The notes under the pieces were generated by a model that did not search any database, was not told the origin of the DNA, and saw nothing but the letters and a program-made list of their open reading frames with translations. Below, in pieces: positions 35,286 through 38,790 of a stretch of 64,000 nucleotides of DNA. The translations under genes and the position numbers were made by a program. The stretch comes from Lutjanus erythropterus. Lineage: Eukaryota > Chordata > Actinopteri > Lutjaniformes > Lutjanidae. The stretch covers positions 28,466,555 through 28,530,554 of the forward strand of contig CM034591.1 of NCBI GenBank assembly GCA_020091685.1, written 5' to 3'. Every line of letters begins with the position of its first letter. Position 1 is the stretch's first letter.

Positions 35286-38790
<3,505 letters not shown>

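Follow-up and report, generated by a model that had tools for sequence, protein, structure and literature searches.

The tetranucleotide CACG at positions 37210-37213 on the forward strand of the window, the 64,000-nucleotide stretch of Lutjanus erythropterus DNA analyzed here, is very probably (roughly 0.88) orthologous to exon 2 of mammalian MPC1, a constitutive exon of 4 bp, and recognized by means of a stretched 3′ splice site. The micro-exon of fish mpc1 is real; it has already been described for human and mouse and is hence not new. Confidence is high for the exon itself and moderate for the details of its branch point.

All of the mpc1 coding region lies within the window, on its + strand, and spliced translation resolves it into five coding exons. 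The features are as follows (all positions are those of the window):

35286..35356, + strand: exon 1, 71 coding nt, ending in ATGAG and followed by the donor GTATGT (from spliced translation and a gapless alignment with MPC1 chains)
35357..37209, + strand: intron 1, 1853 nt
37210..37213, + strand: micro-exon CACG, 4 nt, completing the Ser codon AGC and then supplying the Thr codon ACG
37214..37219, + strand: micro-exon donor, GTAAGT
37599..37695, + strand: exon 3, 97 nt, starting CAT TTC TGG GG (from spliced translation)
38050..38182, + strand: exon 4, 133 nt (from spliced translation)
38766..38790, + strand: exon 5, 25 coding nt including the stop codon TAG

The introns measure 1853, 385, 354, and 583 nt, and the exons add up to 330 nt (71+4+97+133+25), which encode a 109-residue MPC1 and end with the stop TAG. 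The MPC family domain is present in the product (PF03650; 118.1 bits, cut-off 27), and residues 1-108 match the PDB MPC1 chain 9mnw_A free of gaps, with an E value of 1.7e-59. Alignment with the solved MPC1 chains, which we take to be human (the search output names the molecule only), runs uninterrupted through MSTHFWGP and includes a 24-residue stretch of complete identity.

The reading frame makes the role of the micro-exon explicit. Exon 1 stops two bases into a codon at 35356, and exon 3 opens with CAT (His) at 37599; between them lie the acceptor AG at 37208-37209, CACG, and the donor GTAAGT. The split Ser codon takes its AG from exon 1 and its C from the micro-exon, and the remaining ACG encodes Thr. 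The coordinates and phase assigned in the first-pass annotation proved exact (exon 1 end at 35356, CACG at 37210-37213, and CAT at 37599), and its prediction of a frameshift upon skipping was borne out as well, with a stop being encountered after 29 codons when CACG is left out.

Whether another exon could do the same work was addressed by a splice-combination test covering 51,610 routes with one internal exon of 1-60 nt, an AG acceptor, and a GT or GC donor, with the donor of exon 1 and the acceptor of exon 3 each allowed to lie up to 60 nt from the site named above. Sixty-eight of the 51,610 routes retained DYLM, zero to four residues, and HFWGP in frame. The right length was found in 15 of the 68, and a single one, through CACG, gave STHFWGP. 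Within the routes tested, the conserved Ser-Thr-His needs CACG, just as the annotation had maintained; its further claim that 109 residues are exclusive to this tetramer was too strong, as 14 other tetramers and one micro-exon-free route also keep the length.

Chance occurrence of the motif was gauged from dinucleotide shuffles of the interval 35357-37598. A bare AGYACNGT match means little because 452 of 2000 shuffled introns contain one, and it was dropped as evidence; it is the match to the full donor and acceptor, together with the protein test, that counts. The same pattern with the full donor GTAAGT, AGYACNGTAAGT, turned up in 5/2000 shuffles, and the version with CAG and GTRAGT, CAGYACNGTRAGT, in 1/2000. 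Moreover, AGCACGGTAAG occurs only once in the whole window and was present in 2 of 100 window shuffles.

Much of what can be said about the recognition of this exon comes from work on mammals. Koh, Shin and Kim (2023) reported that exon 2 of human MPC1 consists of 4 bp, TACG, and, as read from mRNA, an exon of 4 bp sits at this place in the MPC1 of human and mouse alike (PMC9929638). The fish micro-exon agrees with it in gene, 4-nt length, and position in the protein, and human TACG and fish CACG, each read after the AG of exon 1, differ synonymously at the Ser codon (PMC9929638). Human MPC1 has five exons, to be compared with five coding exons in the fish (PMC5346765). The human introns 1 and 2, in contrast, measure >12 and 3 kb, whereas those of the fish are short (1853 and 385 nt) (PMC9929638). 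Elsewhere in the literature, a splice-blocking mpc1 morpholino was used in zebrafish, in a paper whose available text does not contain the word “exon” (PMC5388534), and BRP44L is listed in a table of expression changes (PMC3267718).

The human exon is included almost without exception in the cell lines reported. For example, skipped mRNA was undetected in 786-O cells even with cycloheximide, and several other human and mouse lines showed near-complete inclusion (PMC9929638). In human constructs, 67 nt of upstream and 6 nt of downstream sequence were enough for inclusion, which became markedly lower when the upstream part was cut to 46 nt, while shortening the exon itself to 2, 1, or 0 bp left splicing without noticeable loss (PMC9929638). 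The major human branch points lie at -68 and -64 (-63 in the paper’s Discussion), far from the usual position, and next to them, from -67 to -43, 22 of 25 bases are pyrimidines (PMC9929638).

The sequence upstream of the fish micro-exon is laid out in a similar manner:

37132..37207, + strand: AG-free stretch of 76 nt before the acceptor AG (-78 to -3)
37140..37150, + strand: predicted distal branch-point region, from a yTnAy scan, with two TTTAT adenines at 37140 (-70) and 37150 (-60)
37151..37166, + strand: distal pyrimidine tract, 15 of 16 bases being pyrimidines (-59 to -44)

Counting both strands of the window, an AG-free stretch of this length or longer precedes 95 of 7934 AGs. The combination of features is not unique here: in 26 of the 7934, the micro-exon acceptor counted among them, a long AG-free stretch is accompanied by 14 pyrimidines in a window of 16. 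Close to the acceptor the sequence is instead A-rich, with A at 24 of the final 43 positions of intron 1, and the proximal region at -20 to -4 is 29% pyrimidine; the three remaining mpc1 acceptors have 71, 94, and 76% there. The description of this acceptor as lacking a pyrimidine tract consequently holds for the proximal ~20 nt and fails overall, a strong tract being displaced to -59 to -44. A distal tract is common to human and fish, and motifs predict a distal branch-point region in the fish near the positions mapped in human (PMC9929638); over the interval -67 to -43 the fish has 20 pyrimidines in 25 bases vs the human 22 (PMC9929638).

What is conserved between fish and human is the layout and not every element, because TGTCTG is missing from the fish upstream 67 nt. 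In human, a TGTCTG direct repeat lies in that region, within an upstream stretch whose deletion abolished splicing (PMC9929638); its authors deferred the repeat itself to later work, and it does not yet count as an established hallmark of the exon. Within introns 1 and 2 of the fish gene, TGTCTG occurs only downstream of the micro-exon, at 37271 and 37308, which are 61 and 98 nt past its first base.

Several other features of these introns were noted in passing. The segment 37134-37164, comprising the predicted branch points and the distal tract, has a 71% copy of 31 nt in intron 2 at 37299-37329, and that copy contains a TGTCTG; this is possibly a chance likeness of pyrimidine-rich stretches. 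A T-rich segment at 36936-36957 is 77% complementary over 22 nt to an A-rich one at 37178-37199, and pairing between them could affect the acceptor region, but the inverted repeat is of low complexity and is likely due to chance. Farther upstream, positions 36113-36932 of intron 1 hold a repeat in two diverged copies (109 nt at 72% with a spacing of 474, and 26 nt at 81% with a spacing of 521), perhaps old transposon copies. Finally, the 78 nt of 37136-37213 fold at -5.1 kcal/mol, a value that stands without a shuffle baseline and from which no claim is made of an RNA structure drawing the distal branch point to the acceptor.

By analogy with mammals, the fish gene would use this layout in the same way. 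The branch point is predicted to lie at about -70 and/or -60, with the tract at -59 to -44, both being far upstream of the exon, and the first AG downstream would be the one used, the 76 nt before the acceptor being free of AG. The wide spacing of the elements of its 3′ splice site could be what allows the micro-exon to be recognized: factors bound to branch point and tract would not need to collide with U1 on the GTAAGT that begins only four bases past the acceptor. This steric argument is the suggestion of the authors of the human study and is not proved (PMC9929638). Exon 1 and exon 3 would then be spliced to either end of the 4 nt, with the two introns probably leaving as separate lariats, and inclusion in the fish would be constitutive, as it is in the human and mouse lines. 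The stepwise splicing envisaged in the first-pass annotation fits well with the separate lariats recovered for the two introns from human minigenes with 4-bp and 0-bp exons (PMC9929638). Its suggestion of a reliance on the pyrimidine-rich downstream intron is not supported, since the human island reporter needs only 6 nt of donor sequence; yet 27 nt of MPC1 downstream sequence did improve GPD1 constructs (PMC9929638).

A different proposal is that the micro-exon serves as a regulated cassette, in which skipping would frameshift mpc1 and tune pyruvate import. The early stop described above would indeed lower protein output. UGC just upstream of an acceptor is a motif of SRRM4, and (U)GCAUG nearby is one of RBFOX; no TGC occurs within 100 nt upstream of the fish acceptor, and neither TGCATG nor GCATG within 150 nt. 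In the human and mouse cell lines, moreover, skipped mRNA is absent or almost so, including in 786-O cells with decay blocked (PMC9929638), and these lines lend no support to skipping as a control point. Work on mouse heart points the other way, as an rMATS analysis reported “exon skipping” of Mpc1 in the interval from birth to day 60, although the available text does not name the exon or state whether the aligner could handle one of 4 nt (PMC8872128). The adult mouse heart has more, not less, Mpc1 protein (PMC8872128), and this rise would fit poorly with skipping of the 4-nt exon because its loss frameshifts the protein. Regulated skipping is, on balance, unlikely, and confidence in constitutive inclusion is slightly lower because exon skipping of Mpc1 has been reported in mouse heart (PMC8872128).

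Constitutive inclusion of an exon this small has parallels elsewhere. TNNI1, KSR1, TMEM237, and MUSK also possess coding exons of 4-7 bp with lengths that are not multiples of three, and the endogenous mRNA tested showed no skipped form; unlike the MPC1 island, their isolated islands were included inefficiently in reporters (PMC9929638). The neuronal micro-exon program of Srrm3 and Srrm4 likewise involves very short exons, but it is switch-like in neurons and its exons are often in frame (PMC12626424, PMC12626420), whereas inclusion of the MPC1 exon is reported to be constitutive in cell lines, and its length is not divisible by three (PMC9929638).

The micro-exon-free route that also keeps 109 residues depends on a second donor overlapping the normal donor of exon 1:

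35361..35366, + strand: weak overlapping donor GTATCG at +4, in frame if joined directly to 37599

The donor region at 35357-35366 reads GTATGTATCG, and a join from 35360 to 37599 would yield an Mpc1 of 109 residues with Arg-Tyr replacing Ser-Thr. The frame is kept because the donor shift and the micro-exon are both of 4 nt, and this is the only single-intron join that keeps DYLM and HFWGP in frame among GT/GC donors at 35300-35556 and AG acceptors up to 37640. The +4 donor is weak, however, as TAT/GTATCG matches CAGGTAAGT (CAG/GTAAGT) at 4 of 9 positions; a GT at +5 arises from any GTNNGT donor; and Ser-Thr is common to the fish product and the solved MPC1 chains. Use of this join is accordingly most improbable. 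It is equally far-fetched, if conceivable, that the micro-exon and the +4 donor form a frame-neutral pair, in which skipping combined with the +4 donor would generate a second 109-residue Mpc1 with Arg-Tyr before HFWGP; if true, this would amount to an additional carrier isoform that might escape ordinary aligners. There is also very little to recommend a longer exon of 82 nt (37132-37213) that begins behind the preceding AG and is served by the donor at 37213; it is open, in frame, and similarly ends in Ser-Thr, but it would insert 26 residues missing from the solved MPC1 chains and would swallow the predicted distal branch points and the pyrimidine tract.

Additional genes and elements were found around mpc1. 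A DEAD-box helicase gene, presumably ddx21, has exons on the - strand at 16938-33749, with DEAD at 29231-29578 and Helicase_C at 27731-27991, and its orientation relative to mpc1 is apparently head to head; at 16941-17252 (-) there is a weak GUCT match, below threshold, with an RGG-rich end. Between stretches of the helicase gene, and on the same strand, positions 19974-25215 hold what we interpret as a LINE-kind retrotransposon with two long uninterrupted frames, one of 1299 aa carrying domains for endonuclease and reverse transcriptase, and one of 361 aa with no Pfam match. A recent insertion is suggested because the frames are still open. A chitin synthase-like exon lies at 3291-3563 (+) (PF03142; 31.5 bits, cut-off 27) in otherwise vertebrate-looking surroundings; chitin synthases are known from fish. 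On the other side of mpc1, 42160-51750 (+) holds a probable kifbp gene with a KBP_C match at 51484-51747, its first exon at 42160 having been assigned by eye in a stretch with no Pfam match.

As a coding exon of four bases, the mpc1 micro-exon is among the smallest described, and the comparison supports the view that both its length and its place in the gene have been kept from fish to mammals. The displaced branch point and pyrimidine tract also appear to have been kept, while at least one nearby element, TGTCTG, has not. This is in line with the published view, in which stretching of the 3′ splice site enables the spliceosome to recognize an exon of near-zero length (PMC9929638). Moreover, an exon of 4 nt may be missed by a gene predictor, and a truncated mpc1 would be the result.
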